Source: Fundidesulfovibrio magnetotacticus (GTDB taxonomy: Bacteria > Desulfobacterota > Desulfovibrionia > Desulfovibrionales > Desulfovibrionaceae). Taken from it: a stretch of DNA of 34,911 bases. This document shows positions 2,475 to 20,366 of the stretch, piece after piece (positions within the stretch are counted from its first letter, which is position 1; the number at the start of each line of letters is the position of its first letter). The stretch covers positions 1 to 34,911 of the forward strand of contig NZ_BLTE01000026.1 in NCBI RefSeq assembly GCF_013019105.1, read 5' to 3'. A program made the translations under genes and the position numbers. Under the pieces are notes generated by a model, which had not been told where the DNA came from, made no database searches, and saw only the letters and a list, made by a program, of their open reading frames with translations.

Positions 2475-2876
2475 TTAAGGCAGAGACGGAGCATCCCCCC
2501 TGATTCGATCGAGATCGTCCTCCGTGAGATAATGGTTGGCAGGAGTCTGTGTGTTCTCCAGATAGGTTTCAGCGGCCAACGCAGCACCCTCTCCCATACC
2601 CAAAGCCCCGGCCAGGTTCTTCGTCCCTGCCAACGTTGCAGCGGCAGTTGCCGCAGCAGCCGCTCCTGTCCCTTCCTTGATTTCTTCATGGGTTCTCGGT
2701 CGCATCTCCGCCTGATCGGCAGTGGTCACGAACTCGAATCCCTTGGGCGGGGTATCCTGCGGTCTGCTCAAAGCGTCCTTGACCCAACTGAACGCGCCTA
2801 TGTAACCGGCTAACCCTCCGACTTTTCGCCCGAGCCTTCCCAACTGTGCCTCTCCGTGTTGATTCAAGAGTCCCAT
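2475..2876 (-). CDS. Small phage-region protein with Ala/Gly-rich segment
   Basis: I take the ATG at 2876 (MGLLNQHGEAQLGRLGRKVG), which has AGGAG with 6-nt spacing; two in-frame ATGs lie upstream (2882 and 2927). The product has 133 aa. A Gly-rich N-terminus with a weak hydrophobic stretch (GGLAGYIGAF) is followed by an acidic linker, then an Ala/Gly-rich helix-prone segment (AAAAATAAATLAGTKNLAGA) that could insert in or lie on a membrane. The C-terminus is acidic and mentions no known motif. The repeat copy at 3037-3104 places a promoter about 165 bp upstream. Its role is unknown; a virion or lysis-related minor protein is possible from context. Confidence 0.6.
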   Translation of the reverse strand: MGLLNQHGEAQLGRLGRKVGGLAGYIGAFSWVKDALSRPQDTPPKGFEFVTTADQAEMRPRTHEEIKEGTGAAAAATAAATLAGTKNLAGALGMGEGAALAAETYLENTQTPANHYLTEDDLDRIRGDAPSLP

Positions 2877-2878
2877 TT

Positions 2879-2995
2879 TCATCTCCTGCTGCTGGGGTTG
2901 CGGGCACATGGAGAGTCGGCATCCCACGGATGCTCCCCCTCCGGCCGTCCGGCCCCTCGCTCGTACAACGCACAGAAGCGCCAGGTTGCCTCCAT
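2879..2995 (-). CDS. Possible 38-aa leader ORF
   Basis: An ORF beginning MEATWRFCALYERGAGRPEG ends two bases before the ATG of the 133-aa gene at 2876. Its ribosome site is weak (AAGG). It lies between the repeat-borne promoter and that gene, so it could be translated from the same message, but nothing besides position supports it. Confidence 0.2.
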   Translation of the reverse strand: MEATWRFCALYERGAGRPEGEHPWDADSPCARNPSSRR

Positions 2996-3036
2996 GCCCT
3001 TGACCGGCGGAGCGGCCGGGCCTTCTCAGTGCCCAG

Positions 3037-3104
3037 GGTCCCCCGAATTCTATGCAGGTAGATTTTTATTTCAGCCCACATAGCGCTATGTGGGTAAAAA
3101 GTTG
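3037..3104. repeat. 68-bp direct repeat, copy 2
   Basis: Exact second copy of 1894-1961, offset by 1143 bp, with the palindrome at 3075-3094. It is the right-hand limit of the phage-like region: the next recognisable gene (3234) is an ordinary lipoprotein. Confidence 0.95.
3047..3094 (-). promoter_or_regulatory. Candidate promoter with palindromic operator (copy 2)
   Basis: Same architecture as the first copy: CTGAAA (3074-3069), 16-nt spacer, TAGAAT (3052-3047), with the perfect palindrome abutting the -35 box upstream. It points at the 133-aa gene on the minus strand and predicts a start near 3040. Confidence 0.55.
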
Positions 3105-3233
3105 AAAATTCCTTTCTCCGGTTCCTGCCCGCTTTTCCGGCCTGCGCGGGTTGATCAAACGCGCCGTCGATGCCACTATCGGACTGCGGCGGCCCGCCAG
3201 GGCCGCGTACACCCCAGACATCCAGGAGCTTCC

Positions 3234-3494
3234 ATGCGCGCCCTCGCCATCCTCTGCCTGCTGGCCCTCGTGGCCTGCGCCCCCGCGAAAAAGCCTTCCT
3301 TCGACGCCGCCGACGCCAACAAGGACGGCAAGATCTCCCTCCAGGAGTTCAAGAACCTTTTCAAAAGCTCCGCCCAGGACAAGGCCGAGGAGCAGTTCAA
3401 CCGCTACGACGCCAACCGCGACGGCCTCTTCGACGGATCGGAGTACGACCTCTGGAATCAGGTCGGCTCCGACGACAGCCTGCGCCAGTGGTAG
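3234..3494 (+). CDS. EF-hand lipoprotein
   Basis: An 86-aa protein. The ATG at 3234 has CAGGAG 5 nt upstream. The N-terminus MRALAILCLLALVAC is a lipoprotein signal with lipobox LVAC, so Cys15 would be lipidated and the mature protein anchored on the envelope. Two canonical EF-hand loops follow: DANKDGKISLQEF (27-39) and DANRDGLFDGSEY (59-71), with Asp/Asn at positions 1, 3 and 5 and Glu at 12. The pair should bind Ca2+. Such small calcium-binding lipoproteins are common in this group with no defined partner. It is isolated, with a short GC hairpin (3503-3521) behind it. Confidence 0.8.
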   Translation: MRALAILCLLALVACAPAKKPSFDAADANKDGKISLQEFKNLFKSSAQDKAEEQFNRYDANRDGLFDGSEYDLWNQVGSDDSLRQW

Positions 3495-3825
3495 CGGCTT
3501 CGCCCGCGCGGTGAGCGCGGGCGCGTCCTTGAACGCGCCCCGCCGCGCGATCTGCCAGCGGCGGAGGCCTCTTCCGGCCGGTGCGCGCGACCTGGACAGT
3601 CGCGCAGACCGCCCTGGGGACGCCTCCTCGCGAATGTGACGGCCAGCCAAGGAGCCAACGGCGGGGGGGGGAGACCGACGCCTCCTCACGAACCAGGCGA
3701 CCGGGGCTGTCCTGCAGTGGTGATTGATTCCGCAAGGGCAGGAGGGCATCCGCACGCCGGACAGGCGCGCCGGATGGCCCGGCATCGGATCGCGGGGCCT
3801 GAAGGGATCGCAGCCGACCGGGGCG
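3495..3825. other. 331-bp intergenic region
   Basis: No convincing gene on either strand; open frames here are extensions of antisense frames from the neighbours. Two small perfect hairpins are visible: CCCGCGC/GCGCGGG (3503-3521, 5-nt loop) and GCGCGAC/GTCGCGC (3585-3605, 7-nt loop). Neither has a T-tract. They lie between convergent genes and may act as weak terminators. Confidence 0.5.
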
Positions 3826-4548
3826 TCAGTCCCTGGCCAGCACCAGCACGTCCGCCCGGGCGGCCCCGGCGGCGGCCAGCGCTCGGCAGCAGGCCTCCAG
3901 GGTTGCGCCCGTGGTCATCACGTCGTCCACCAGGAGCACGCGACGCCCCCGGACGGACTCGGGCCTGGCCTCGAAGGCTCCGCCCAGGTTCTCCAGGCGC
4001 TCCCGGGCCTTGAGCTTGCTCTGGGGACGGGTGGCGCGCGTCTTGCGCAGCGCCTCCGGGTCCATCGGTGCGCCCAGGCCCGCGGCCACGCGCCGGGCCA
4101 GCTCCAGGCTCTGGTTGTAGCCTCGTCGCGCCAGACGCCAGCGGTGCACCGGCACGGCGGCCACCACCTCGGGGGCCGGGTCCAGGCCGCCCGGCCGCGC
4201 GGCGTGCAGGGCGTGGGCGTGCAGCAGAAGCTCCCCGGCCAGATGCAGCCCGGCCAGACGCCCTCCGAACTTGAGCCCCAGCACCAGATCGCGCAGCACG
4301 CCCCGGTATGCCCCGTAAAAACCCGCCGTGCTCCACGGACGCGGGCGCGTCCGGCATTTCCCGCACAGCCCCGGCGTCTGGGCGTCCATCTCCGTGAGCG
4401 CCGCGCAGCCGGTGCAGAAGCCCCCCAGACGCGGGCGAAGCTCCCCGGCGCACTCCCCGCACAGCCAGGGGCCGCCGGTCACGGCCCCGCACACCTGGCA
4501 GCGCGTCCCGGCCAGGGCGCGCAGGGCCTCACGCAGCCGGAGGATCAC
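3826..4548 (-). CDS. comF: ComF family phosphoribosyltransferase-like protein
   Basis: A 240-aa protein with the ComF plan. An N-terminal zinc-ribbon-like part has Cys pairs CQVC, CGEC, CTGC and CGKC (about residues 17-65). A central YRGVLRDLVLGLKFGGR motif follows, and a C-terminal PRTase domain carries VPVHRWRLARRGYNQSLELA and the PRPP loop VLLVDDVMTTGATLEA. ComF is needed for DNA uptake in transformable bacteria, and homologues occur widely without shown competence. The ATG overlaps the stop of the upstream flavin reductase gene (ATGA at 4545-4548), so it is the last gene of a three-gene operon. Length fits the family (about 230-245 aa). Confidence 0.88.
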   Translation of the reverse strand: MILRLREALRALAGTRCQVCGAVTGGPWLCGECAGELRPRLGGFCTGCAALTEMDAQTPGLCGKCRTRPRPWSTAGFYGAYRGVLRDLVLGLKFGGRLAGLHLAGELLLHAHALHAARPGGLDPAPEVVAAVPVHRWRLARRGYNQSLELARRVAAGLGAPMDPEALRKTRATRPQSKLKARERLENLGGAFEARPESVRGRRVLLVDDVMTTGATLEACCRALAAAGAARADVLVLARD

Positions 4549-8347: not shown

Positions 8348-8360
8348 CAAGGAGCACCGC

Positions 8361-8615
8361 ATGGACGCCATCACCTACACCAGCGCCCGCGAGAATCTCG
8401 CGCAGACCATGGATCGGGTCTGCGACGATCACGACCCCGTGGTGATCACACGCCGCAAGGGGCGCAACGTGGTCCTGGTCAGCCAGGAGGACTGGAGCGC
8501 CCTCGAAGAGACGGCCTACCTCCTGCGCAGCCCCGCCAACGTGGCCCGGTTGCGCCGGAGTATCGCCGACGCCGACCGGGGCGCCCACGAACCCAACACC
8601 CTGCTCGACGAATGA
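8361..8615 (+). CDS. yefM: YefM/Phd family antitoxin
   Basis: The ATG at 8361 has AAGGAG 6 nt upstream; in-frame ATGs further upstream fall inside the operator and are unlikely. The 84-aa protein begins MDAITYTSARENLAQTMDRV and has DDHDPVVITRRKGRNVVLVS, the Phd/YefM DNA-binding fold. WSALEETAYLLRSPANVARL is the bridge to the toxin-neutralising tail. It should bind YoeB and repress the operon together with it. It overlaps the toxin gene as ATGA. Confidence 0.92.
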   Translation: MDAITYTSARENLAQTMDRVCDDHDPVVITRRKGRNVVLVSQEDWSALEETAYLLRSPANVARLRRSIADADRGAHEPNTLLDE

Positions 8616-8872
8616 TCCGCCTGATCGCCTGGACGCCCGGCGCATGGGAAGACTACCTCTGCTGGCAACGAACCAACAAGGCAATGCTGCGCAAGCTCAA
8701 CGAACTCATCCTGGCCGTCTGCCGTTCCCCCTTTGAAGGGATCGGCAAGCCCGAGCCCCTGCGCTTCGACCTGGGCGGATCGTGGTCCAGGCGCATCGAC
8801 GCGGAACACCGCCTCTTGTACCGCGACGAGGAAGAAACCCTCGTCGTCCTCGGCTGCAGATACCATTACTGA
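8612..8872 (+). CDS. yoeB: YoeB toxin, ribosome-dependent mRNA interferase
   Basis: An 86-aa Txe/YoeB protein, the family's usual length (E. coli YoeB has 84). By alignment with E. coli YoeB, the catalytic Glu46, Arg65 and His83 correspond to Glu48 (GKPEPL), Arg67 (DAEHRLLY) and His85, with the terminal Tyr86 also kept. WSRRI and CRYHY are family hallmarks. All active-site residues are present, so it should be functional. It cleaves mRNA in the ribosomal A site and is neutralised by YefM. Its start overlaps the antitoxin stop by four bases. Confidence 0.93.
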   Translation: MIRLIAWTPGAWEDYLCWQRTNKAMLRKLNELILAVCRSPFEGIGKPEPLRFDLGGSWSRRIDAEHRLLYRDEEETLVVLGCRYHY

Positions 8873-9290: not shown

Positions 9291-11756
9291 TCAACCCTTG
9301 AAGAACCGCAGCCGCAGGGCGTTGGTGACCACCGACACCGAGCTGGCCGCCATGGCCGCCCCCGCGATCATGGGCGAGAGCGTTGGGCCGCCGAAGGCGT
9401 GCAGCACGCCTGCCGCCACCGGGATTCCCAGCACGTTGTAGGCGAAGGCCCAGAACAGGTTCTGGCGGATGTTGCGCACCGTGGCCCGCGCCAGCGCCAA
9501 GGCCGTGACCACCCCGCGCAGGTCCGCGCGCAGGAGCACCACGTCGCCGGTCTCGATGGCCACCCCGATGCCCGAGCCCATGGCCAGCCCCACGTCCGCC
9601 GCCGCCAGGGCCGGGGCGTCGTTGATGCCGTCGCCCACCATGGCCACCGTGAGGCCCTGGGCCTTGAGCTCGTTCACCTTGGCCGCCTTGCCCTCCGGAC
9701 CCACGCCCGCGAACACCTCGTCCACGCCAGCTTCGCCCGCCACGGCGTGGGCCGTGCGCGGCGTGTCGCCCGTGAGCATCACCACCCGCACGCCCATGGC
9801 CTTGAGGCGGCGCACCACCTCCGGGGCCTCGGGGCGCAGGGCGTCTGCCACCGCCAGCACCCCCAGCGCACGGCCGGACTCGGCCGCGTAAAGGGGCGTC
9901 TTGCCCTCGGAGGAGAATACCTCGCCCAGTTCCAGGAGCCCGGGGGGAAGCTCCACCCCCTCCTCGGCAAGCCACCCGGCGCGGCCCACAAGGCACGGCT
10001 TCCCGGCCACCTGGGCCGCCGCGCCCTTGCCCGGCACGGCGCGGCCCGCCGCCGCCAGCGGCAAAACGATCCCCCGCGCCTGGGCCGCGTGGACCACCGC
10101 CTCGCCCAGCGGATGGGCGGAGCTGCTCTCCACCGCCGCCGCCACGGCAAGCAGCCGGTCGCGCGCGACGCCCGGCGCGGGCTCCACGTCGGTGAGCGCG
10201 GGCTTGCCCAGGGTGAGGGTCCCGGTCTTGTCCAGCACCACGGCGTCCACTCCGGCGGCCGCCTCCAGGGCGCGCCCGCTCTTCACCAGCACGCCGAGCC
10301 TGGCCCCGCGCCCGGTGCCCACCATGATGGACGTGGGCGTGGCCAGACCCATGGCGCACGGACAGGCGATGACCATCACCGAGACGAAGATGCGCAGCGC
10401 GAACCCCGCACCCTCGCCCGCCAGCAGCCAGGCCGCGGCGGACAGGGTCGCCAGGGCCATCACGGCCGGGACGAAGTGCAGGCTCACGCGGTCGGCCAGG
10501 CTGGCCAGCGGGGCCTTGGAGCCCTGCGCCTCGCGCACCAGGCGCACGATGCGCGCGAGAACCGTGTCTCGCCCCACGCGCTCGGCGCGCATGGTCAGCG
10601 CGCCCAGGGCGTTGAGCGTTCCCGAGGCCAGCGGATCGCCCGGGTTCTTGGCCACGGGCTCGCTCTCGCCCGTGAGCATGGATTCGTCCACCTCGCCCGC
10701 GCCCTCCAGCACCACGCCGTCCACGGGCACGCGCTCTCCGGGGCGCACCAGCAGGAGATCGCCCGGTCGCACGGCGCGCACGTCCACGCGCTCCTGGCCG
10801 CCGTCCCGCAGGCGCGTGGCCTGCTCGGGCGCGAGGCTCAGAAGCGCCTTCACGGCCTCGGTGGTGCGCGCCTTGGAGCGGGCCTCGAAGTACTTGCCCA
10901 GGGAGACGAGGGCCAGGATCACCGCGGCGGACTCGTAGTAGAGTTCGTGGGCCTTGTGCGCGCCGCCGTGGGCGAAGAGGATCGTCCCCGTGTTCCACAG
11001 CGAGGCCGCCAGGGCCGCCCCCGTGCCCAGGGCGATGAGCGAGTCCATGGTGGGCCCGCCGCGCAGCAACGCCGGGATCCCCGCCGTGTAGAAGCGCCTG
11101 CCCAGCCAGACCAGCGGGGCCGTGAGCGCCAGTTGCGTCAGGGCGTAAGCGCCCGGCGAGGCGTCGGGGGAGAGGAACGCGGGCAGCGCAAGCCCCACCA
11201 TGGGGCCCATGGCCACCACGAGCACCAGCGCGCCCAGCGCAAGCTGCGGCCCCAGGGCGCGGCGTTGCTCCTCCAGGCGCAGGGCGGCCTCGCGCTGCTG
11301 CTCCTCGAAGAGCGATTCGTCCTCGTCCTGGACCTCCGAGGCCGTGAAGCCCAGGCCCTCGATGCGCCGGATCACCGCGTCCAGGCCCGGTCCGCCGGGC
11401 TCCAGCTCCAGTTCGCCCGTGCCGGAGGCCAGGTTCACGCGCACGGCGCGCACGCCCTCCATGGACCCCACCACCTTCTCGATGCGCGAGGAGCACGAGG
11501 CGCAGTGCATGCCCCCGATCACCAGCCGCGAAGACTCGGCGGGCCTGGGCAGCACCAGCTCGAAGCCCAGCGCCTTCACGCGCTCCGCAACGCCCTCCGG
11601 GGTGACCACGGCCGGGTCGAAGCGCAGCCGCAGGGTCTCCCCGGCCAGGTTCACCGAGGCCTCCGCCACGCCGGGCATACCCCCGACCACCTTTTCGATG
11701 CGCGCCGAACAGGCCGCGCAATGCATGCCCCGCACCGGCATCTGACGCTCTTCCAT
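9291..11756 (-). CDS. copA: Cu+-exporting P1B-type ATPase
   Basis: I start at the ATG at 11756 (MEERQMPVRGMHC), which has GGGAG in front, giving 821 aa. Two N-terminal heavy-metal domains carry MHCAAC (11-16) and MHCASC (83-88). Then come eight expected membrane helices and the actuator TGES. The transmembrane CPC metal site is in VIACPCAMGLATP, the phosphorylation motif is DKTGTLT, and HP (SSAHPLGEAV) and GDGINDAPAL mark the ATP domain. AYNVLGIP and MAASSVSVVTNALRL in the last two helices are the Cu+ subclass (P1B-1) signature. It pumps Cu+ (or Ag+) out of the cytoplasm. It is divergent from cbiK with only 55 bp between the start codons. Confidence 0.95.
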   Translation of the reverse strand: MEERQMPVRGMHCAACSARIEKVVGGMPGVAEASVNLAGETLRLRFDPAVVTPEGVAERVKALGFELVLPRPAESSRLVIGGMHCASCSSRIEKVVGSMEGVRAVRVNLASGTGELELEPGGPGLDAVIRRIEGLGFTASEVQDEDESLFEEQQREAALRLEEQRRALGPQLALGALVLVVAMGPMVGLALPAFLSPDASPGAYALTQLALTAPLVWLGRRFYTAGIPALLRGGPTMDSLIALGTGAALAASLWNTGTILFAHGGAHKAHELYYESAAVILALVSLGKYFEARSKARTTEAVKALLSLAPEQATRLRDGGQERVDVRAVRPGDLLLVRPGERVPVDGVVLEGAGEVDESMLTGESEPVAKNPGDPLASGTLNALGALTMRAERVGRDTVLARIVRLVREAQGSKAPLASLADRVSLHFVPAVMALATLSAAAWLLAGEGAGFALRIFVSVMVIACPCAMGLATPTSIMVGTGRGARLGVLVKSGRALEAAAGVDAVVLDKTGTLTLGKPALTDVEPAPGVARDRLLAVAAAVESSSAHPLGEAVVHAAQARGIVLPLAAAGRAVPGKGAAAQVAGKPCLVGRAGWLAEEGVELPPGLLELGEVFSSEGKTPLYAAESGRALGVLAVADALRPEAPEVVRRLKAMGVRVVMLTGDTPRTAHAVAGEAGVDEVFAGVGPEGKAAKVNELKAQGLTVAMVGDGINDAPALAAADVGLAMGSGIGVAIETGDVVLLRADLRGVVTALALARATVRNIRQNLFWAFAYNVLGIPVAAGVLHAFGGPTLSPMIAGAAMAASSVSVVTNALRLRFFKG

Positions 11757-11772
11757 ACGCCGCTCCCGGGCA

Positions 11773-11801
11773 TTGGCTCCTGGGGGGAAGTCTGCTAGGG
11801 C
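11773..11801 (+). promoter_or_regulatory. Candidate promoter for cbiK
   Basis: TTGGCT (11773-11778), 17-nt spacer, TAGGGC (11796-11801). The ATG at 11812 is ten bases after the -10 box, leaving a leader of only a few nucleotides and no Shine-Dalgarno. The -10 match is poor, so this is tentative. Confidence 0.35.
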
Positions 11802-11811
11802 TACCCCTCCC

Positions 11812-12612
11812 ATGCACGCGCCCTTGAAAGTCCTCGTGGTGGCCGCCCACGGCTCCTCGCACCCGCTGGCCCGCGCCGCCCTGGGCGGCTTCGCGGACCA
11901 CGTCCGGGCGCTCGCGCCGGACAGGCCAATCCACCTTGCCTATACCGCTTTCCGGCGTTCCGGCAACCACCCCGCCTCGGCCGGGGCACAGGAACGGGAG
12001 CTGCCCCGCGTGCTGGAAGGGCTCGAACGCCTGGGCGCGCCGGTGGAACTGGCCGTGCTCTCCCTGCACGTGGTGGCGGGGGACGAGTTCGAGCGCACGC
12101 GCCTGGCCGTGGAGGCCTTCGCGCGGGGCCAGGGCGTTCCGGCGCGGCTTTCGGGACCGCTGCTCGCCCGCCCGGAGGACGCCCCCCAAGTGGCCCGCGC
12201 CCTGGCCGGGGAGTTGAAAGCCCTGCCGCCGGGCGAGGCCGCCGTGCTCATGGGCCACGGCGCAGCCGGGGAGGCCCAGCAACTCTACCGCGAGCTGGCC
12301 CGGGAGCTCCAGGCCCTGGCCCCGTTGGCCCGCCTGGGCGTGCTGGAGGCCGCCGATCCGGCCGATCCCCTGCACATCCGGGCCATGGCGGCGGACCTGG
12401 CCGCGCGCGGCGTGCGCCGGGCCACCCTCGCGCCGCTGCTCACCGTGGCCGGACGCCACGCCCACAAGGACCTGGCCGGGGAACAGCCCGGCTCCTGGCG
12501 CTCGGCGCTGGCCGCCCACGGCATCGACAGCCCGGCCGACCTGCGCGGGCTTGTGGAGCGCGAGGCCTTCCGCGCCCTCTGGGCCGGACGCCTGGCCGGA
12601 CTCCTGGCCTGA
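11812..12612 (+). CDS. cbiK: Anaerobic sirohydrochlorin cobaltochelatase
   Basis: A 266-aa protein of the CbiK class. It opens with VLVVAAHGSSHPLARAAL and contains AYTAFRRSG. The metal/tetrapyrrole residues His149 (VLMGHGAAGE), Glu179 (LGVLEAADP) and His216/His218 (AGRHAHKDLAGEQPGSW) match the His-Glu-His set of the family. It inserts Co2+ into sirohydrochlorin in the oxygen-independent cobalamin pathway. Desulfovibrio species carry cytoplasmic and periplasmic CbiK forms; this one has no signal peptide and should be cytoplasmic. An in-frame TTG at 11773 falls inside the promoter, so I prefer the ATG at 11812. Confidence 0.92.
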   Translation: MHAPLKVLVVAAHGSSHPLARAALGGFADHVRALAPDRPIHLAYTAFRRSGNHPASAGAQERELPRVLEGLERLGAPVELAVLSLHVVAGDEFERTRLAVEAFARGQGVPARLSGPLLARPEDAPQVARALAGELKALPPGEAAVLMGHGAAGEAQQLYRELARELQALAPLARLGVLEAADPADPLHIRAMAADLAARGVRRATLAPLLTVAGRHAHKDLAGEQPGSWRSALAAHGIDSPADLRGLVEREAFRALWAGRLAGLLA

Positions 12613-12713: not shown

Positions 12714-13799
12714 TCAGCCCTTGCCGCGGCCGATCCAGCCCTTGCGCCGGAAGTAGAAAAGCATCCCCACCGCCACCGCGCCCATCACGCCCAGCACCCC
12801 GAAGTAGCCGTAGCGCCACTTCAGCTCGGGCATGTACTCGAAGTTCATACCGTAGAGACCGGCCAGGAACGTGAGCGGGATGAAAAGCGTGGAAAACATG
12901 GCCAGCACCTTCATGATCTCGTTGGTGCGCAGCCCGATCTTGGAAAGGTAGAGCTCCACCATGCTCGAGAGCAGGTCGCGGAAGGTCTCCACGGTGTCCA
13001 TCACCTGGATGGTGTGGTCGTAGAGGTCGCGCAGGAAGAAGACGGTGGAGTCCTTCACCAGTTCCGTGCCGCCTTTCTCCAGGCGGGCCACCACCTCGCG
13101 CAGGGGGAAGATGAACTTGCGCAAGAAGAGCGCCTGGCGGCGCAGGCCGTTCAACTGCTCCAGGTGCCTGGGCAGGGCCGAACGCAGGAGCTGCTCCTCG
13201 ATCTCCTCGATGTCCTCGCCCATGCGCTCCAGCACCAGGAAGTACTGGTCCACCACGGCGTCCAGGAGGGCGTACATCAGATAGTCCGCGCCGTAGTTGA
13301 GGATGCGCCCCTTCTTGGAGAGCAGGCGGCGGCGCACCTCGTCGAAGGCGTCGCCGCCCGGGCGTTCCTGGAAGGTGAGCAGGAAGTGCCTGCCCAGGAT
13401 GAAGCTCACCTGCTCGTCCTTCACGGCGCGCGCCTTCTCGTCCCAGGTGAGCATCTTGAGCACCACGAAGACCGTGCCGTCGCCCAGCTCCTCCATCTTG
13501 GGGCGCTGCCCCGTGTGCACGATGTCCTCCACCACCAGCGAGTGGAGCCGGAACACCTCGGCCGCGCGGTTCACCACCTCCATGTCGTGCAGGCCGTCCA
13601 CGTTCACCCAGCGCACCTGCGGCCCCTCGTCGAAGCAGGCGCACTCCTGGAGGCGTTCAGGGCGGTCCACGCGCGCGCCCTCGGAGTCGTAGGTGATCAT
13701 CTCCACGGTGACGGGCTCGTGGCGCTCCTCGCCCACGTAGAGGGGCGAGCCGGGCGCGCGGCCCACGGTGCGGCTGCGGCGGCGCAGGTATTCGAGCAT
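12714..13799 (-). CDS. corA: CorA magnesium/cobalt transporter
   Basis: I start at the ATG at 13799 (MLEYLRRRSRTVGRAPG), which has CAGGAG 8 nt upstream, giving 361 aa. The large soluble N-domain contains VRWVNVDGLHD and LVVEDIVHTGQRPK. A long stalk helix is followed by two C-terminal membrane helices, the first ending in the YGMNFEYMPEL selectivity motif (GMN). The basic tail KGWIGRGKG fits CorA. It forms a pentameric channel for Mg2+ and Co2+. It is convergent with cbiK, and Co2+ supply to that enzyme is a plausible but unproven link. Confidence 0.94.
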   Translation of the reverse strand: MLEYLRRRSRTVGRAPGSPLYVGEERHEPVTVEMITYDSEGARVDRPERLQECACFDEGPQVRWVNVDGLHDMEVVNRAAEVFRLHSLVVEDIVHTGQRPKMEELGDGTVFVVLKMLTWDEKARAVKDEQVSFILGRHFLLTFQERPGGDAFDEVRRRLLSKKGRILNYGADYLMYALLDAVVDQYFLVLERMGEDIEEIEEQLLRSALPRHLEQLNGLRRQALFLRKFIFPLREVVARLEKGGTELVKDSTVFFLRDLYDHTIQVMDTVETFRDLLSSMVELYLSKIGLRTNEIMKVLAMFSTLFIPLTFLAGLYGMNFEYMPELKWRYGYFGVLGVMGAVAVGMLFYFRRKGWIGRGKG

Positions 13800-13882
13800 G
13801 GCGGTTCTCCTGGGAACGTCCTCTAGGGGACAACCCGCCGGGACCACAAGCCCCCGCGCCATTTCTCCGCTGTTTTTCCCAT

Positions 13883-13900
13883 CTATCGCCCCCGCGATAG
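13883..13900. promoter_or_regulatory. Inverted repeat in the transporter operon promoter
   Basis: CTATCGC, four C bases and GCGATAG form a perfect 7+7 inverted repeat 74 bp before the DASS transporter ATG. A weak promoter (TTTTTC or TTTTCC around 13873-13879; GATAGT/TAGTCT around 13896-13903) would place the repeat across its spacer and -10 box, a common repressor position. Confidence 0.45.
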
Positions 13901-13973
13901 TCTGCTTGTCCGCCCCGGGCTACACGCCCACCATCGAGCGGCGCACCGCGCGGCGTATTCAAGGAGGTGGCCC

Positions 13974-15530
13974 ATGGCCAACGGGACGGCCCAGTCAGTC
14001 AACACATGCAAGGGAGGGCTCGGAACCTACGTGTCCGAGAACCTCACACTCTGCGGCCAGAGCCCCAAGGCCACGTGGATCGGCTACGCGGCGGCCTGGG
14101 CGCTCTTCTTCCTCATCCTCAAGGTGCTCCCGCTGCCCTCGGGGCTCAAGCCCGAGGGCATGAGCGTGCTGGCGGTGCTCGTGTGGGCGTGCGTCATGTG
14201 GGTCACGGAGGCCATGCCCGTGGGCATCGCGGGCATCTCCATCCCCACGCTGCTCATCCTCACCAGGGCCATCCCCTGGAACAACGGCAACCCGCCCATG
14301 GGCCAGGCCTTCTCCGGCTTCACCACCCACGAGGTCTGGCTTTGCCTCTTCGCCTTCTTCGCCGGGGCCATCATCCAACTCCTGCGCATGGACAAGCGCA
14401 TCGCCCTGGCCATCCTGGACAAGCTCAAGGCCTCCAGCGTGGGGCGCATCATCTGGGGCATGTTCTGGGTGAACGTCGTGCTGGCCTTCCTGATCCCGGC
14501 GGCCAACGCCCGCGCCGCCACCGTGATGCCCGTGGTCCAGGGCGTCACCGCCCTCCTGGGCGACTCCCACGCCGAGCGCGAGGCCAAGAAGGCCATCGTC
14601 ATCCAGGCCATGGTCTACGCCTCCATGATCTCGGGCCTGTTCATCCTCACCGGGCACATGCCCAACCTGATCATGACCGGCCTCTTCGAGAAGAGCGGCC
14701 TGCGCAACCTCGGCTATTTCAACTGGATGGTGCTCCACGCGCCCTATCTCATCCTGTTCGCCCTCATCCAGTGGTGGGTGCGCGTGCACTTCAAGACGGC
14801 GGGCGTCTCCATCCCCGGCGGCCACCAGGAAATCAGCCGCCAGCACCGGGAGCTGGGGCCCATGTCCGGCCCCGAGAAGGCCATGCTGGCGGTCTTCGCC
14901 GTCGTGGGCCTGCTCTTCATGACCGGCAAGGGCTCGCCCGTGGTGCTCCACACCTATCAGCTGGGCATCGTGGGCCTGGTGGGCATCATGATCCTCTTCA
15001 TCCCCGGCCTGTTCCCCTTCAAGTGGAAGGCCGTGCAGGACCGCACCACCTGGGGCACCTTCCTCCTGCTGGGCGGGGCCATCACCATGACAGACGCCAT
15101 GGCCAAGTCCGGCCTGGCCGCCTGGATGGCCGACCACATCCACGCCCTGGTCGCGGGCATGAACTGGTGGCAGACCCTCCTGGTGATGATGCTGGGCACC
15201 CAGGTGCTGCGCCTGGGCATGCTCTCCAACGTGGCCGCCGTGGCCATGCTCGCGCCCATCATGTTCGCCATGGCCCCCAAGGTGGGCCTGCACCCCGTGG
15301 CCTTCACCCTGCTCATCTGCAACGTGGACACCTTCGCCTTCCTCTTGCCCACGCAGATCACCGCCGCCGTCATCGCTTACGGCACCAACACCTTCTCCAC
15401 CGCCGACTACGCCCGGGCGGGCTGGGTGTGCTCCCTGCTGGCGGTGGTCTTCGGCATCCTGGTCATGGCCCCCTGGTACGCCCTCTGGGGCCTGCCCGTC
15501 TGGAACCCCAACGCCCCCTGGCCCTTCTAA
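13974..15530 (+). CDS. DASS/SLC13 family anion transporter
   Basis: A 518-aa polytopic membrane protein with about 12 hydrophobic spans; AAGGAGG lies 7 nt before the ATG. The family plan is clear: a conserved entry region VTEAMPVGIAGISIPTLLIL, then two substrate/sodium hairpins. The first, LIPAANARAATVMPVVQGV, resembles the PSNTAR-type motif of CitT/DIT1 proteins with Ser-Asn-Thr altered. The second is MLSNVAAVAMLAPIMFAMAP. Members import sulfate, di- or tricarboxylates, so the sequence alone does not give the substrate. Its stop is 10 bp before the AprA-like gene, so the two are co-transcribed and the imported anion is probably linked to that enzyme. Confidence 0.88.
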   Translation: MANGTAQSVNTCKGGLGTYVSENLTLCGQSPKATWIGYAAAWALFFLILKVLPLPSGLKPEGMSVLAVLVWACVMWVTEAMPVGIAGISIPTLLILTRAIPWNNGNPPMGQAFSGFTTHEVWLCLFAFFAGAIIQLLRMDKRIALAILDKLKASSVGRIIWGMFWVNVVLAFLIPAANARAATVMPVVQGVTALLGDSHAEREAKKAIVIQAMVYASMISGLFILTGHMPNLIMTGLFEKSGLRNLGYFNWMVLHAPYLILFALIQWWVRVHFKTAGVSIPGGHQEISRQHRELGPMSGPEKAMLAVFAVVGLLFMTGKGSPVVLHTYQLGIVGLVGIMILFIPGLFPFKWKAVQDRTTWGTFLLLGGAITMTDAMAKSGLAAWMADHIHALVAGMNWWQTLLVMMLGTQVLRLGMLSNVAAVAMLAPIMFAMAPKVGLHPVAFTLLICNVDTFAFLLPTQITAAVIAYGTNTFSTADYARAGWVCSLLAVVFGILVMAPWYALWGLPVWNPNAPWPF

Positions 15531-15540
15531 GGAGGTCCCC

Positions 15541-17298
15541 ATGCCACGCATGGCCCAGAATCCCGTGAACCTCGACGCCGTGGAAACCGTGCGCGTCGAC
15601 TGCGACATCCTCATCATCGGCGGCGGCAACGCCGGATGCTTCTCCGCCGTGGAAGCCGCCAAGATCGACCCCTCCCTCAAGGTGGTCATCATGGAAAAGG
15701 CCCAGATCATGCGCTCCGGCGCGTGCTCGGCGGGCATGGACGCCATCAACACCTACATCCCCGAAGGCAAGACCCCCGAAGACCTCGTGCGCTGGTGCCG
15801 CTCCCAGGTGGGCGGAGGCCCTCTGCGCGAGGACCTGGCGCTCTCCAACGCCCGCGAACTCAACGAAGCCGTGGACGACCTCGAACGCTGGGGGCTGCCC
15901 ATCCTGCGCGACGACAAGGGCAACATCCGCTACCGGGGCGCCTGGGACATCTCCATCCACGGCGAGCAACTCAAGCCCATCATGGCCGAGAAGGCCATCG
16001 AGGCCGGGGCGCAGGTGTACAACCGCGTGGCCTGCACGCAACTCCTCATGCACGAGGGCCGCTGCGTTGGCGCGCTGGGCTTCGGCGTGCGCGACGGCAA
16101 GTTCTACGTCTTCAACGCCAAGGCCACCATCAACGCCACCGGCGGCGCGGCCGGGCTCTACAAGTCCTACACCGCCGACGCCACCGACTCCCACCACCAG
16201 ATCTGGATGTGCCCCTACTGCGTTGGCACCGGCTACGCCGTGGGCATCCGCCAGGGCGCTGAAATGACCTCCATGGAGCAGCGCTGGGTGGCCACCCGCA
16301 CCAAGGACTTCTGCGGCCCCGTGGACACCATCTCCGTGGGTTACAAAGCCCCCATCATCAACGCCAAGGGCGAACGCATCATGCGCGAACGCTACGCCCA
16401 CCTGGGCGCGGACAAGGCCCCGCGCTACATCCGCGCCAACGCCCCCATGGAGGAATGGCTCGCCGGACGCGGCCCCACCTACTGCGACACCCGCGACATG
16501 GACCCCGAACTCGCCAGCCAGATGATGACCGACTACCTCAACGAACGCCCCAGCTTCGTCCTCTTCCTGGCCAGCAGGGGACAGGACCCCACCAAGGAAC
16601 CCATCGAAATCTACGGCTCCGACCCCTACATCGTGGGGGGGCACACCCAGTCCGGCTTCTGGGTGGACCTCGACCGCATGACCACCGTCCCCGGCCTCTT
16701 CGCCGCGGGCGAAACCGCCGGCGGCAACCCCAACAAGTTCGTGGGAGGCTGCGCCGCCGAAGGCAAGATCGCCCTGCGCGGGGCCGTCCAGTACATCCAA
16801 AACCTCGAACTCCCGGACCCCGATCCCGCACAGATCGAGGCCGAAAAAGCCCGCGTCTTCGCACCGCTGCTGCGCGGCCAAGACTTCGACGGCGTGGCCG
16901 CCCTCGAAATGGAAGAACGGCTCCAGCGCCTCATGGACGAATACGCGGGAGGAACCAGCCAGTTCTACCGCACCAACGAGGAACGCCTGGACTACGCCCT
17001 CAAACACCTGGACGTCCTCAAGGACCAGACCCGCTTCCTCAAGGCCAGGGACCTCCACGACCTCATGAGCGTCCACGAAGTGATCGACCGCCTCGACGTG
17101 GCCGAGGTGCTCTGCCATCACCTGAAATTCCGCAAGGAAACCCGCTGGCAAGGCTGGCAGACCCGCGCAGACTACCCCGACACCGACCCGGCCTACGACT
17201 GCCACGTGGAAAGCCGCAGGAACCTGGAAACCGGGGAGATCGAGACGTTCACCCGGCCCTACGAACAGATCGTGCCGGGAGACCGCTACAAACCCTGA
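15541..17298 (+). CDS. Short AprA-like FAD-dependent oxidoreductase
   Basis: A 585-aa flavoprotein of the fumarate reductase/AprA superfamily; AAGGAGG lies just before the ATG. The FAD Rossmann motif is at 24-40 (LIIGGGNAGCFSAVEAA), with MTTVPGLFAAGETAGGNPNK (380-399) and CAAEGKIALRGA as the second FAD contact. MEQRWVATRTKDFCGPV (245-261) parallels the AprA segment around its substrate Arg. YIVGGHTQSGFWV (363-375) parallels the AprA active-site His region, giving His368 and Trp222 (HHQIWM) as candidate catalytic residues. Canonical AprA is about 620-665 aa, so this is a short paralogue. APS reduction is one option; reduction of another anionic substrate is the other. The AprB-like ferredoxin gene follows. 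Confidence 0.85.
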   Translation: MPRMAQNPVNLDAVETVRVDCDILIIGGGNAGCFSAVEAAKIDPSLKVVIMEKAQIMRSGACSAGMDAINTYIPEGKTPEDLVRWCRSQVGGGPLREDLALSNARELNEAVDDLERWGLPILRDDKGNIRYRGAWDISIHGEQLKPIMAEKAIEAGAQVYNRVACTQLLMHEGRCVGALGFGVRDGKFYVFNAKATINATGGAAGLYKSYTADATDSHHQIWMCPYCVGTGYAVGIRQGAEMTSMEQRWVATRTKDFCGPVDTISVGYKAPIINAKGERIMRERYAHLGADKAPRYIRANAPMEEWLAGRGPTYCDTRDMDPELASQMMTDYLNERPSFVLFLASRGQDPTKEPIEIYGSDPYIVGGHTQSGFWVDLDRMTTVPGLFAAGETAGGNPNKFVGGCAAEGKIALRGAVQYIQNLELPDPDPAQIEAEKARVFAPLLRGQDFDGVAALEMEERLQRLMDEYAGGTSQFYRTNEERLDYALKHLDVLKDQTRFLKARDLHDLMSVHEVIDRLDVAEVLCHHLKFRKETRWQGWQTRADYPDTDPAYDCHVESRRNLETGEIETFTRPYEQIVPGDRYKP

Positions 17299-17393
17299 GC
17301 GCGGGTCGTCTACGTGCTCCGGCGAACAGGCGGCGCACTGAGGACAAGCTGGGCGTCGCGTTGAAGAAGAGTGAGGCGGCGATCCGTGGGCCA

Positions 17394-17434
17394 GCGGGGC
17401 GCTGCCCCGCACCCCCGACGGGGCTCCGCCCCGT
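17394..17434 (+). repeat. Tandem perfect hairpins between the AprA- and AprB-like genes
   Basis: GCGGGGC-GCT-GCCCCGC (17394-17410) and ACGGGGC-TCC-GCCCCGT (17418-17434) are two near-identical 7-bp stems with 3-nt loops, seven bases apart. They resemble dispersed GC-rich palindromic units. No T-tract follows, so they may stabilise or attenuate the operon transcript rather than end it. Confidence 0.7.
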
Positions 17435-17507
17435 GCCCCGGCCGCCGCGCGAGGCGACGACAACGACGCGCAACGGGTCAAACACCATCAACCGAGAGGA
17501 GGCCGCC

Positions 17508-17837
17508 ATGCCGCCTATTGTCGATCCCAAAAAGTGCAACGGCTGCGAGGGCCGGGAAGAGTCGTTCTGCGAGGAGGCCTGCCCGGGGGACCTGATGTAC
17601 GTGGGCGCGGACGGCAAGTCGCACTGCCACGCGGCGCGCGATTGCTGGGACTGCATGTCCTGCGTGAAGATGTGTCCGCGCGGGGCCATCGAGACGAAGA
17701 TGCCCTACCAGCTAGGCTACCACAAGGCGACGCTCAGGCCCATCATGGGCAAGGACAGCATCACCTGGAAGTGCACGGACATCCACGGAAAGACGGTGAT
17801 GTACCGCTACCGCAATCGTCTGGAGCGCAAGGGCTGA
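17508..17837 (+). CDS. Short AprB-like 2x[4Fe-4S] ferredoxin
   Basis: A 109-aa protein; GAGAGGAGG precedes the ATG. Cluster I ligands are Cys10, 13, 21 and 25 with the C-x2-C-x7-C-x3-CP spacing found in AprB, not the usual ferredoxin spacing. Cluster II is Cys46, 49, 52 and 56. Trp47 in CWDCMSC matches the AprB CWECYSC tryptophan that lies on the electron path to FAD. After the clusters, ATLRPIMGKDSITWKCTDIHGK resembles the AprB beta-sheet region, but the long C-terminal arm that wraps around AprA in the canonical enzyme (about 150-167 aa in total) is absent. It should pass electrons to the AprA-like protein 209 bp upstream. Confidence 0.88.
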   Translation: MPPIVDPKKCNGCEGREESFCEEACPGDLMYVGADGKSHCHAARDCWDCMSCVKMCPRGAIETKMPYQLGYHKATLRPIMGKDSITWKCTDIHGKTVMYRYRNRLERKG

Positions 17838-17874
17838 GGCTGCGGGCCTGCCCGGCCGGGCCTGTAGTGCGCGG

Positions 17875-17935
17875 GTCCGGCCGGGCGCTGGCTGCCGACG
17901 CGGGCGGGCATGTCCGTGCGGCAGCCTGCCCGGAC
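17875..17935 (+). terminator. Imperfect hairpin behind the ferredoxin gene
   Basis: GTCCGG (17875-17880) pairs with CCGGAC (17930-17935) and GGCTGCC (17890-17896) with GGCAGCC (17920-17926), enclosing a 23-nt loop. It lies 38 bp after the ferredoxin stop and before the regulator's own promoter. It has no T-tract, so it is a candidate terminator or mRNA-end structure. Confidence 0.4.
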
Positions 17936-17980
17936 CGATTCCCGGCCTCGATGCGCGCCGGGCGATAGGCGCCTGGGCGC

Positions 17981-18008
17981 TTGACGCGGCAGGGGCCGTC
18001 ATTATTGT
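17981..18008 (+). promoter_or_regulatory. Promoter for the Crp/Fnr gene, leaderless arrangement
   Basis: TTGACG (17981-17986), 16-nt spacer, TATTGT (18003-18008): a good sigma70 match. Only six bases lie between the -10 box and the ATG at 18015, so the message should be leaderless. Confidence 0.6.
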
Positions 18009-18014
18009 GAGCCC

Positions 18015-18722
18015 ATGGCGGGCATGGACGCTAATGTGGAGTGGCACCTGGCCAAGGGCGGCTTTTTCGACGGCCTTGAGCGCGAGTTCGAGGCCTTTCG
18101 GGCGTTGGCGACGCGGCGGCTGGTGAAGAAGAACGACGTGGTTTTTTTCGAGAACGATCGTTGCACCCGCTGTTTCTATCTGGACGAGGGGGCGGTGAAG
18201 ATCTTCCGGATTTCGCTGCACGGGAAGGAGCCGACGTTCTTCATCCGTTCGCCGGGCGAGATGTTCGGGCTGGCCGAGGTGGTGGGCGGCGAGTCCCGCA
18301 AGTGTTCGGCCCAGGCCCTGTCGGACGGGGTGATCCTGGAGATCGGGCGCGACGACTTCCTGGGGCTGATGCTTGGCCATCCGTCCATGGGCCTGCGGGT
18401 GATCGAGGTGCTGGGGCGTCGCATCCGGTACCTGACGGGCCAGTTGGAGAACCTGATGACGTGCGGCGTGGCCACGCGGCTTCTCAAGCTGCTGGTGTGC
18501 CTCTCGCACGACGAGATCGCGCAGGCCAGGGGCGGTCCGGCCCAGGTGCCGGTGCGCCTGACGCAGGGCCAGATGGCCTCCATGACGGGCTCCTGCCAGC
18601 AGACGGTGAGCGAGACGCTGGCGGGCTTCGAGCAGCGCGGGCTCATCAAGGTGGGTCGGGGGCGGATAACACTGTTGGACATCGAGGGCGTGTTCGAGGC
18701 TTTGGCTACGGAATCTTCCTAA
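18015..18722 (+). CDS. Crp/Fnr family transcriptional regulator
   Basis: A 235-aa protein. The cyclic-nucleotide-type beta-barrel spans about 15-120 (CFYLDEGAVKIFRISLHGKE, SPGEMFGLAEVVGG), followed by the dimer helix (about 120-150). The C-terminal winged helix contains LTQGQMASMTGSCQQTVSETLAGFEQRGLI (about 182-211). The N-terminal four-cysteine [4Fe-4S] motif of true FNR is absent, but a CxxC pair (Cys50, Cys53) sits at the edge of the barrel. The cAMP-binding RSA motif is not evident. It probably senses a redox, gas or metabolic signal and may control the preceding transporter-AprA/B genes. The ATG at 18024 is an alternative start. Confidence 0.88.
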   Translation: MAGMDANVEWHLAKGGFFDGLEREFEAFRALATRRLVKKNDVVFFENDRCTRCFYLDEGAVKIFRISLHGKEPTFFIRSPGEMFGLAEVVGGESRKCSAQALSDGVILEIGRDDFLGLMLGHPSMGLRVIEVLGRRIRYLTGQLENLMTCGVATRLLKLLVCLSHDEIAQARGGPAQVPVRLTQGQMASMTGSCQQTVSETLAGFEQRGLIKVGRGRITLLDIEGVFEALATESS

Positions 18723-18763
18723 TCATTCCAGCTTTCTCTGTAGTCCGCGCATTCGATTCCTGT

Positions 18764-18832
18764 TTTCCTACCTGGAAACCGAGGGGCACGCCATGTATGC
18801 TGGCTGTCCTGTATAATGATTTCCTACCTGGA
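18764..18832 (+). promoter_or_regulatory. Promoter region with 13-bp direct repeats
   Basis: A perfect TATAAT (18812-18817) lies 22 bp before the lipoprotein start, with no good -35 box 16-18 bp upstream. TTTCCTACCTGGA occurs twice (18764-18776 and 18820-18832), 56 bp apart. The second copy supplies the GGA of the ribosome site and straddles the expected transcription start. Confidence 0.5.
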
Positions 18833-18839
18833 GGGTCGC

Positions 18840-20366
18840 ATGCGTTTGTCGTTGCGTCTGGCGTTGTGCGTGGTGTTGTTCGGGTTGTGCGGGTGTATGG
18901 GGACATCGAAGAAGGCTCACCTGATGGCCGAGGACAACCTCTACAAGCCCGTGGAGTACGTCAACGCGGCCCAGCCCGGGCCTACCGTGCTCGTGCTGCC
19001 GGGGCAGGTGAGCGCATGGAGTTACGAGTTCCTGGGCAAGGTGAACGCGCAGGGCCTGCGTGATTTCGCCGAAGTGGAGATGGGCAAGTGCAACTTCAAG
19101 GTGCTGGACCGGGTGGAGAACCCGGCCATGCTCCAGGAGGTGGCCATCGCCGCGAATCTGGGCGAAGGCGCGGTGATCGGCAAATTCAAGAAATTCAAGT
19201 TCACCCCGCCGCACTGGGTGGTGGTGTTCGACGTGATCGAGGTGACCCCGCGCTCCACGGGCTTCAAGTACACCGACAAGGCCATGGCCGGGCTGGCCGG
19301 CTCGTTGATGGGCGGGATGATCTTCGGCCAGCTGGGCGCGAAGATCGGCGAAGCGACGCTCGGCTCCATCAGCTCGGCCGAGGAGCAGCGCGAATGGGCC
19401 ATCAGCCTGCGCTACCGGGTGATCGACGCCGTGTCCGGCGTGACGGCGCACGAGGGCCAGTTCCAGGACAAGACCACGGTCTACCGCGAGATCAAGGGCT
19501 TCATGGGCTTCGACACGCACGAGGCGGGCGGCGGCCAGCTTTCCACCTCGGTGCAGCGCATGGTGCAGCAGGCCATCAGGGAGATCGACGAGAAACACAA
19601 GCTTCCCGCCATGGCGGCGTTCGAGGCCGAGAAGGCCAAGCGCGAGAAGGCCATCGCCCGCGCGGCGGCTGAGAAGCCAGCTCCCCCGGCCAAGAAGGGC
19701 AAGAAGGACGAAGCGCCCGTGGCCGAGGGCGTGGCCTGCACCATGACGAGCCTGGGCGCGGTTTCCTGCCTGGTGCCCACGGGGTGGACCACGGCGGCGT
19801 TCCCCACGCTGGGCGCGCAGGGGCAGGCCCAGGCGCTGGGCGGCGGCGGGCAGTCCTCGGCCCTGGCCATGAGCCTGGCCACCCAGGCCGCGGGGCCGCT
19901 GGTGACGCTGACCATGCCCGGCTCGGTGCTGGGCACGGCGTTCAGCGGCGTGGCCATCAACGGCCCGGACGTGGACGGACGCCTGATCATGGTGCCAGCG
20001 CAGGCCTGCAAGGGCGATCCGGCGGTGCTCCAGGCCATGCTGGAGAAGCACTTCCAGCAGAGCTCCCTGGTGCAGGGCCTGGGCGTGGAGACGGTGGAGG
20101 CCCAGGGCGGCCAGCGCCCCATCCAGGTGTACAAGTACATCCGGGTGGAGCGGCGCAAGGTGGAGAGCAACGAGCCCCAGACCACCTCCGGCGCGGACAC
20201 GGGGCAGGGCAACTCCAAGATGGTGTCGGTGCCGCACTACCTGAACATCGCGGTGGCCGTGATGCCCAAGGGCGACCAGATGGTGGTGGCCCTGCTGATG
20301 GTGCCGGAGGAGCGCTTCGTGCCGCAGCTTGAAGGGTTCCGCAAGCTGGTGGGCTCCATCAGCTAG
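18840..20366 (+). CDS. Large lipoprotein of unknown function
   Basis: A 508-aa protein; GGAGG precedes the ATG at 18840. MRLSLRLALCVVLFGLCGC is a lipoprotein signal, lipidated at Cys19. Domain 1 (about 40-265) has VLVLPGQVSAWSYEFLGKV and an internal glycine-rich helix (MAGLAGSLMGGMIFGQLGAK, about 146-165) that could insert in a membrane. A Lys/Ala/Pro linker (about 270-300) follows. Domain 2 (about 305-508) starts CTMTSLGAVSCLVPTGWTTA and ends LVALLMVPEERFVPQLEGF-like, resembling the 'P-x-GW' periplasmic fold of DcrB/PsbP-like proteins. I do not recognise a specific family. It is probably an envelope protein, expressed singly, with a strong terminator behind it. Confidence 0.7.
   Translation: MRLSLRLALCVVLFGLCGCMGTSKKAHLMAEDNLYKPVEYVNAAQPGPTVLVLPGQVSAWSYEFLGKVNAQGLRDFAEVEMGKCNFKVLDRVENPAMLQEVAIAANLGEGAVIGKFKKFKFTPPHWVVVFDVIEVTPRSTGFKYTDKAMAGLAGSLMGGMIFGQLGAKIGEATLGSISSAEEQREWAISLRYRVIDAVSGVTAHEGQFQDKTTVYREIKGFMGFDTHEAGGGQLSTSVQRMVQQAIREIDEKHKLPAMAAFEAEKAKREKAIARAAAEKPAPPAKKGKKDEAPVAEGVACTMTSLGAVSCLVPTGWTTAAFPTLGAQGQAQALGGGGQSSALAMSLATQAAGPLVTLTMPGSVLGTAFSGVAINGPDVDGRLIMVPAQACKGDPAVLQAMLEKHFQQSSLVQGLGVETVEAQGGQRPIQVYKYIRVERRKVESNEPQTTSGADTGQGNSKMVSVPHYLNIAVAVMPKGDQMVVALLMVPEERFVPQLEGFRKLVGSIS

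Follow-up and report, generated by a model that had tools for sequence, protein, structure and literature searches.

Structure of the operon

The first 34,911 nucleotides of contig NZ_BLTE01000026.1 in the 4.46-Mb genome of Fundidesulfovibrio magnetotacticus (assembly GCF_013019105.1), hereafter called the window, contain an operon for a DASS (divalent anion:Na+ symporter) permease, a flavoprotein related to AprA, a ferredoxin related to AprB and a transcription regulator of the CRP/FNR family, all encoded on the plus strand. We tentatively propose, on a question that leaves us almost evenly divided, that this operon serves dissimilatory sulfite and sulfate reducers as a dedicated module for the uptake and reduction of an anion, giving sulfite for the reductase Dsr, likely from a small anion that bears a sulfo group. 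The elements of the module are as follows.

13884-13899: palindrome TATCGCCCCCGCGATA, 75 bp upstream of the permease start, predicted as the probable operator of the CRP/FNR regulator of the module
13974-15530, plus strand: DASS permease, 518 aa (TIGR00785, PF00939)
15541-17298, plus strand: AprA-like flavin adenine dinucleotide (FAD) flavoprotein, 585 aa (NF005331, tree, pocket columns, PDB 8a8o_A)
17508-17837, plus strand: AprB-like ferredoxin, 109 aa (matches to TIGR02060 and 8a8o_C, eight cluster cysteines)
18015-18722, plus strand: CRP/FNR-family transcription regulator, 235 aa (PF00027 and PF13545, both over their cut-offs)

The trio of permease, flavoprotein and ferredoxin genes, noticed in a preliminary description of this DNA, proved to be real, and the gap of 10 bp between the permease and flavoprotein genes was confirmed by the ATG at 15541, which is preceded by the good ribosome-binding site AAGGAGG. 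The gap between the flavoprotein and ferredoxin genes is 209 bp in the window, 197 bp in the related locus L007 and mostly 10-60 bp in the relatives.

Scanning 84,980 species genomes, a search that detects close relatives only, yielded 43 further loci with flavoproteins of 64-92% identity, three of these loci being cut by a contig end. The AprB-like gene is present in 42 of the 43, and a homologue of the regulator was found in 37 within the sequence stretch examined, indicating that the conservation of the trio is beyond chance. The nearest named relative is Fundidesulfovibrio agrisoli (flavoprotein 92% identical). The hosts belong to Desulfovibrio, Solidesulfovibrio, Fundidesulfovibrio, Nitratidesulfovibrio, Bilophila, Mailhella, Desulfarculus, Desulfomonile, Desulfobulbaceae, Desulfocapsaceae and further Deltaproteobacteria and bacteria. 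Within the own genus the module is present in five of six other genomes, the sixth being 66% complete, and in the search of relatives it was detected in 12 of 59 genomes, the own genome included.

A third clade of AprA-like flavoproteins

The flavoprotein scored 595 bits against NF005331, the NCBIfam model of the adenylyl-sulfate reductase alpha subunit (cut-off 557; the relative in genome G040 is slightly below with 554.1 bits). Its score against the model of canonical AprA, TIGR02061, was far below the cut-off (388.9 versus 641.75 bits), as was that against TIGR01812 for FrdA/SdhA below its own (140.6 versus 567.3 bits). The best PDB chain was 8a8o_A, the alpha subunit of the 3'-phosphoadenosine 5'-phosphosulfate (PAPS) reductase of Methanothermococcus (MtPAPSR), with 492 bits, compared with 343 bits for A. 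fulgidus AprA, and a Foldseek search with the predicted model likewise pointed to the AprA/MtPAPSR fold.

In a flavoprotein tree of 39 rows, three clades were separated: the clade of the window protein (hereafter the window type; support 97/97, 21 rows), canonical AprA (98/100) and the assimilatory proteins together with MtPAPSR (86/98, 9 assimilatory rows). The rooting is unsure owing to long outgroup branches and one outgroup row (L006) in a wrong frame, and the three clades are independent of it. Mutual identity is at least 64% (median 76%) within the window type, as against 32-46% with assimilatory and 31-42% with canonical proteins. As judged from sequence, the flavoprotein thus represents a third, separate clade beside canonical AprA and the assimilatory (P)APS reductases, and it stands outside FrdA as well. 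The idea of a separate module, put forward in the preliminary description, agrees with this tree, in which the protein was placed neither with canonical AprA nor with FrdA/SdhA. Canonical AprA membership is ruled out by the TIGR02061 score and the tree. Membership in FrdA/SdhA is ruled out by the TIGR01812 score, the tree and the motifs: HPT and CRGxGG, both present in the SdhA/FrdA-type protein of the same genome (L005), are absent from the flavoprotein, which has VATRTK and SVGYKA instead. Proteins of this type are already named APS (adenosine 5'-phosphosulfate) reductase in databases; new are the distinction of the clade, the exchange of transporters and the operator, for none of which an account was found in the literature searched, a search without most subscription journals.

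Conserved and altered residues of the active site

Alignment columns were compared across three sets of rows, 51 of the window type (of which five duplicate a genome), 6 canonical and 9 assimilatory, using the residue numbers of A. fulgidus. A total of 55 columns are identical across all three groups, including N74, W234, E258, R265, R317 and H398, and we take N74, W234, R265, R317 and H398 to be the residues at the sulfo group and the flavin. The substrate Arg and His of AprA, the surroundings of which were described as kept in the preliminary description, are themselves kept in the flavoprotein. Seven columns that are invariant in canonical and assimilatory rows are changed in at least 96% of the window-type rows, i.e., G227T, Y235M, F261W, G274D, T314R, M365E and D439E. 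Compared with canonical AprA, further changes are E/S141R, Q145D, Y/M95W, F277S and L278V, and W144 is as in canonical AprA.

According to the available text of PMC10322725, MtPAPSR keeps the catalytic residues of APS reductases, its PAPS determinants are K120, R121 and S122, and Q145 of A. fulgidus would clash with the 3'-phosphate. At the positions of K120, R121 and S122 the window type is variable, W (50 of 51 rows) and D (51 of 51), respectively. PAPS as the substrate is disfavoured, since these residues of MtPAPSR are not kept.

AprA-like paralogues from other contexts carry a partial AprA set. One of them, L139 (G377:C44, gene 10776-12368), is the second short AprA-like gene of Ca. Bilophila G377, the first being of window type; it lacks N74, R265, R317 and H398, its nearest model is PRK08275, a gene for a 75-aa ferredoxin lies downstream, and its neighbours resemble organic-acid metabolism. 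The other, L140 (G403:C66, gene 2671-4263, minus strand), lacks W234, R265 and R317. Here the distant AprA-like flavoprotein, which shares 27% identity with the window protein and is closest to PRK08275, comes directly behind a TctC-TctB-TctA operon, together with a GltD-like protein; TTT transport is in this case coupled independently with the flavoprotein superfamily.

Ferredoxin and electron donor

The ferredoxin contains eight cysteines for two predicted [4Fe-4S] clusters. The AprB cysteine spacing and the electron-path Trp (CWDC), pointed out in the preliminary description, are indeed conserved, all eight cysteines and the Trp being kept in 34 of 34 aligned relatives. The protein scored 71.8 bits with TIGR02060, below the cut-off of 135.65, and its best PDB matches were 8a8o_C (72.7 bits) and AprB 1jnr_B (68.6 bits). 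The C-terminal arm of AprB is missing, proteins of the window type having 101-118 aa versus 148-162 aa for canonical AprB. Two extra cysteines are peculiar to the type, C40 (33 of 34 relatives) and C89 (34 of 34), both missing in 4 canonical and 3 assimilatory AprB sequences.

17625-17627 and 17772-17774, plus strand: codons of C40 and C89 of the ferredoxin

An HdrA-like gene, with NF040770 (HdrA2) as the best model, under its cut-off, is located behind the ferredoxin gene in 10 loci, mostly outside Desulfovibrionales, and in two of these loci (L015 and L023) AsrA/AsrB-like (Flox-like) genes follow it. These loci resemble the way in which AprAB is arranged with Qmo/Hdr in a number of sulfate reducers, as given in the available part of PMC10504309. 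No HdrA-like donor gene is present in the window, where the electron donor would be ferredoxin.

Association of the module with Dsr

Among a spread of 297 Desulfobacterota genomes, in which the flavoprotein type was assigned mainly by identity, DsrA was found in 144. All 13 genomes with the window type carry DsrA, whereas none of the 8 with the assimilatory type does (Fisher 4.9e-6 and hypergeometric 6e-5, kinship being ignored). Among further genome handles, DsrA was found in 48 of 51, the exceptions being G364, G369 and G384. The sets of 51 and 52 handles used here represent fewer genomes, since G040/G373, G089/G371, G118/G379, G328/G374 and G349/G380 are each one genome twice.

Sat was not found in six of 52 handles (G313, G369, G377, G382, G384 and G385), and CysD exceeded the cut-off in none of the 10 handles tested, these six included. 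Canonical AprA is present in G369 and G382, so that the absence of Sat is probably a gap in their assemblies. In G377 (Ca. Bilophila), G385 (Mailhella) and G313, DsrA is present and none of Sat, CysD and canonical AprA was found; these three are draft assemblies, 83% complete for G313 and of unknown completeness for G377 and G385. Without Sat, APS would not be made in these hosts, barring an enzyme not searched for. Independently, B. wadsworthia QI0013 is stated to be without Sat in the available text of PMC11610557.

In the own genome, Sat and DsrA share contig C8 with canonical AprA (1092 bits to TIGR02061), which has an AprB-like gene upstream and three genes of the size and order of qmoABC downstream, the first two being HdrA-like by blastp.

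Exchange of the transporter

The permease scored 201.3 bits with TIGR00785 (cut-off 198.6) and 219.6 bits with PF00939. It is 23-24% identical to TtdT and CitT of E. coli, and its PDB matches include both the NaDC and NaS types. Complete flavoprotein genes are available from 41 sources, namely the window and 40 loci; the upstream transporter was DASS in 21, TTT in 11 and TSUP (TauE) in 7, with none seen in 2, one of them (L016) at a contig end. The DASS gene of L042 lies behind a small open reading frame (ORF), the TTT genes of L017 and L023 are divergent, and the DASS genes of L030 and L019 represent a distant subtype with 30-33% identity to the window permease. When the transporter type was placed on the flavoprotein tree, with 37 of the 41 rows labelled (unlabelled L037 and L045, both DASS, L014 and L016), 7 changes were counted, and the DASS label changed at least 5 times on well-supported branches.

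Known TTT ligands carry two carboxylates or other groups, sulfolactate included (PMC5812351, available text). Since TTT versions exist, sulfate alone is insufficient as the shared substrate; one substrate common to DASS, TTT and TSUP would most simply be an organic anion or a sulfonate.

A gene for a PhnD-like periplasmic phosphonate-binding protein (PF12974) was observed near the distant DASS subtype (L030 6998-7711, L089-L091 and L019), and that of L030 is preceded by a palindrome of its own. All six handles without a Sat match (loci L031, L036, L039, L040, L141 and L023) have the TTT version, and every DASS or TSUP version observed comes from a handle with a Sat match, for which shared ancestry in gut lineages could be an explanation.

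Regulator and palindrome

The palindrome TATCG-N6-CGATA was detected in 20 of 39 upstream regions, whereas none of 30 shuffles gave more than 2. Exact copies amount to 29 sites in 26 of 44 sources (683,759 bases). They stand before DASS, TSUP and TTT/AprA-like genes and, in L030, before the regulator gene. When the half-site was permuted in 60 ways, the next best version gave 4 sites, and among all 1024 half-sites TATCG occurred in the most sources (26; runner-up 19). Within the window, 13884-13899 is the sole site at up to one mismatch. The palindrome is unlike the consensus sequences printed in the available part of PMC545781 for CooA (TGTCGGCnnGCCGACA) and HcpR (TTGTGAnnnnnnTCACAA). The recognition-helix residue Gln195 of the regulator is conserved in 36 of 36 aligned proteins, and the neighbouring CRP/FNR protein presumably binds the palindrome. 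A search of 60 kb around the apr/qmo, sat and dsrA genes of the same genome (L083, L143 and L144) gave no palindrome at up to one mismatch, and there is thus no evidence for control of those genes.

Other features of the window

Other genes recognised in the window are as follows.

3-869, minus strand, at the contig start: phage-type major head protein (phrog_1328, 4e-69), probably the end of a prophage
8358-8872, plus strand: YefM/YoeB-type toxin-antitoxin pair
9291-11813, minus strand: copper-type P-ATPase gene
11773-12612, plus strand: CbiK-like sirohydrochlorin cobaltochelatase (97.7 bits, under the NF047852 cut-off of 400)
12714-13862, minus strand: CorA transporter gene

The corA and DASS genes are divergent, and the palindrome of the module lies between them. 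Relatives of the CbiK-like gene, which is close to the module, were also noted in the vicinity of the module in L035 and L096. On the minus strand, long antisense ORFs such as 13995-15752 and 15463-17481 were rejected as genes, being shadow frames of the high-GC sequence. No match to Rfam was found anywhere in the window, and a promoter and terminator scan of 13700-18900 stayed at the level of shuffled sequence, with 1 promoter-like (mean 0.5) and 2 terminator-like (mean 2.6) elements.

Possible function of the module

The substrate of the module is most likely a small sulfonate-type anion rather than APS. The permease (DASS here, TTT or TSUP elsewhere) would import a small dianion with a sulfo group, with organosulfonates, for instance a carboxy-sulfonate, as the most likely candidates. 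The [4Fe-4S] pair of the AprB-like protein would receive two electrons from ferredoxin or, in other lineages, from an HdrA-like complex encoded downstream, and would pass them via the conserved Trp to the FAD bound by the AprA-like subunit. N5 of the reduced FAD may attack the sulfur, as proposed for APS reductases, to form a flavin-sulfite adduct, with the organic remainder leaving, and the released sulfite would be reduced by DsrAB; the dedicated CRP/FNR protein would switch the module via TATCG-N6-CGATA. So specified, the enzyme would be a flavin-dependent reductive desulfonase, its AprA-type chemistry moved from APS to an imported organosulfonate that yields sulfite for Dsr under its own CRP/FNR control, with no glycyl-radical or lyase chemistry and no ATP-consuming sulfate activation, a possibility about which we are rather doubtful.

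Several observations weigh against a sulfonate module. To our knowledge, reductive C-S cleavage by such flavin chemistry has no precedent. Sulfate can be carried by DASS, Sat was found in 46 of the 52 handles, and canonical AprA is present in 12 of the 13 genomes with the window type. As a control, class-specific columns were counted in the same test for each group, giving 7 for the window type, 4 for the assimilatory and 6 for the canonical proteins, so that the window type is one of three equals and no outlier, and the numbers alone are no proof of a new substrate. The predicted flavoprotein model has a mean pLDDT (predicted local distance difference test) of 71.7, with parts of the pocket below 50, and thus confirms the AprA/MtPAPSR fold only, not the pocket geometry. 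The exact palindrome is missing in 18 of the 44 sources, including several gut lineages (L031 and L036 among them), and one exact copy is located inside the assimilatory locus L086. In addition, both NCBIfam and, in its available text, PMC11610557 label such proteins APS reductase; the published reading of the Bilophila AprAB, together with growth on added APS, is the weightiest of the contrary points.

The main rival is indeed an APS reductase after all, given that PMC11610557, as far as its text is available, reads the AprAB of Sat-less Bilophila in this way. It would be a second, Qmo-independent enzyme, receiving APS from Sat or, in Sat-less Bilophila, from neighbours, and the permease would bring in sulfate or APS. 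The NF005331 score over the cut-off, the sulfo-site residues together with W144, and Sat in most hosts are all consistent with it. B. wadsworthia, Sat-less and with two AprAB clusters, grows better with 10 mM APS, and two short AprA-like genes, one of them of the window type, are also present in Ca. Bilophila G377; the growth test, however, is not tied to a gene in the available text of PMC11610557. Moreover, the window type departs from APS and PAPS reductases at positions that these two share, three DsrA-bearing hosts are without Sat, CysD and canonical AprA, no sat adjoins the module and TTT is known for organic acids. On balance we consider an APS reductase unlikely. Its assimilatory variant, sulfate assimilation via APS, had been left open in the preliminary description; it is now rejected on the basis of the clade, the neighbours (cysDN and others for the assimilatory type) and the DsrA contrast, and is further disfavoured by the three hosts just mentioned.

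It is improbable that a sulfur-free organic acid is reduced or oxidised after import by DASS, TTT or TSUP, in the manner of fumarate reductase or tricarballylate dehydrogenase. Di- and tricarboxylates are carried by DASS and TTT, such enzymes belong to the same flavoprotein superfamily, and the distant AprA-like L140 has TTT genes upstream. The flavoprotein, however, has the AprA set, whereas L140 is without W234, R265 and R317, and the tie to DsrA genomes also argues against a sulfur-free substrate. A fumarate-reductase-like reaction on a dicarboxylate, another of the options raised before, is disfavoured by the absence of HPT and CRGxGG, the motifs of the SdhA/FrdA-type protein of the same genome.

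Likewise improbable is an inorganic sulfur anion, above all thiosulfate, which would be split to sulfite and sulfide by flavin attack on the sulfone sulfur. The sulfo-site is kept and the hosts are Dsr bacteria; thiosulfate respiration in T. muris proceeds in the absence of PhsABC, and the AprAB of this organism is accompanied by neither Sat nor QmoAB (PMC10507020, available text). On the other hand, TTT is not known for thiosulfate, and in the same part of PMC10507020 the AprAB of T. muris, which may or may not be of the window type, was not seen in the proteome on taurine, sulfolactate or thiosulfate. The reverse direction, in which sulfite is joined to an organic acceptor and the product exported, is very improbable: AprAB is reversible and TSUP includes sulfite/sulfonate exporters (as in the name of PF01925), but TTT with its periplasmic binding protein serves uptake (PMC5812351, available text) and sulfite is food for these hosts.

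Of the three options in the preliminary description, namely sulfate assimilation, a sulfonate and a dicarboxylate, the sulfonate is therefore favoured, with a substrate that we infer. The overall interpretation given there was partly supported; MtPAPSR as the closest solved relative, the regulator, the palindrome and the transporter exchange had been missed, and the proteins already bear a name in NCBIfam.

Sulfate is not the only source of the sulfide made by sulfate reducers and by sulfite reducers of the gut, and any further route to sulfite shifts the list of H2S sources. If a sulfonate is indeed the substrate, a whole clade now called APS reductase is misnamed, and Desulfovibrionaceae, Bilophila and soil and sediment Desulfobacterota would possess an uptake route for a further sulfur compound. 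The TTT version supplies a soluble binding protein, of which the ligand is directly screenable.

Comparison with known systems

MtPAPSR of Methanothermococcus thermolithotrophicus (PDB 8a8o) is the best PDB match for both subunits, and it resembles the window type in its short alpha subunit, its 104-aa beta subunit without an arm and the catalytic residues it shares with APS reductases (PMC10322725, available text). It differs in identity (about 40%), in its clade and in K120/R121/S122; moreover, its gene stands among sulfate activation genes according to the same source, unlike that of the window type.

With canonical AprAB/QmoABC the module shares the sulfo-site residues, the FAD flavoprotein, the two-cluster beta subunit with its Trp, the tie to DsrA and, in some lineages, HdrA-type donor genes. 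In contrast to canonical AprAB, identity is 31-42%, TIGR02061 stays under its cut-off, the AprB arm is missing, the pocket is altered and neither sat nor qmoABC adjoins. The assimilatory NF005331-type reductases of Desulfobacterota (L084-L088 and L092) fall under the same NCBIfam model and have a short armless AprB, but they are 38-42% identical and accompanied by DsrA in 0 of 8 genomes. They adjoin CysPTWA/CysDN-like, cysteine synthase-like or sulfite reductase-like genes, named by sequence reading, whereas no sulfate activation or assimilation gene was recognised among the clustered neighbours of the window type, the singleton neighbours having been scanned in part.

Bilophila wadsworthia QI0013, a sulfite reducer without Sat, carries two AprAB-like clusters, as does Ca. 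Bilophila G377, where one is of the window type; the available text of PMC11610557, which reads them as APS reductase, holds no analysis of transporter, regulator, clade or pocket. Neither a lyase nor a glycyl-radical enzyme was recognised in the gene lists around the module, most neighbours not having been scanned against a library. Among the sulfonate uptake systems from which sulfite passes to Dsr, SlcHFG (TTT) is comparable as a tripartite carboxylate-type importer for a sulfonate, but there the C-S cleavage is performed by SuyAB (PMC5812351 and PMC10507020, available parts).

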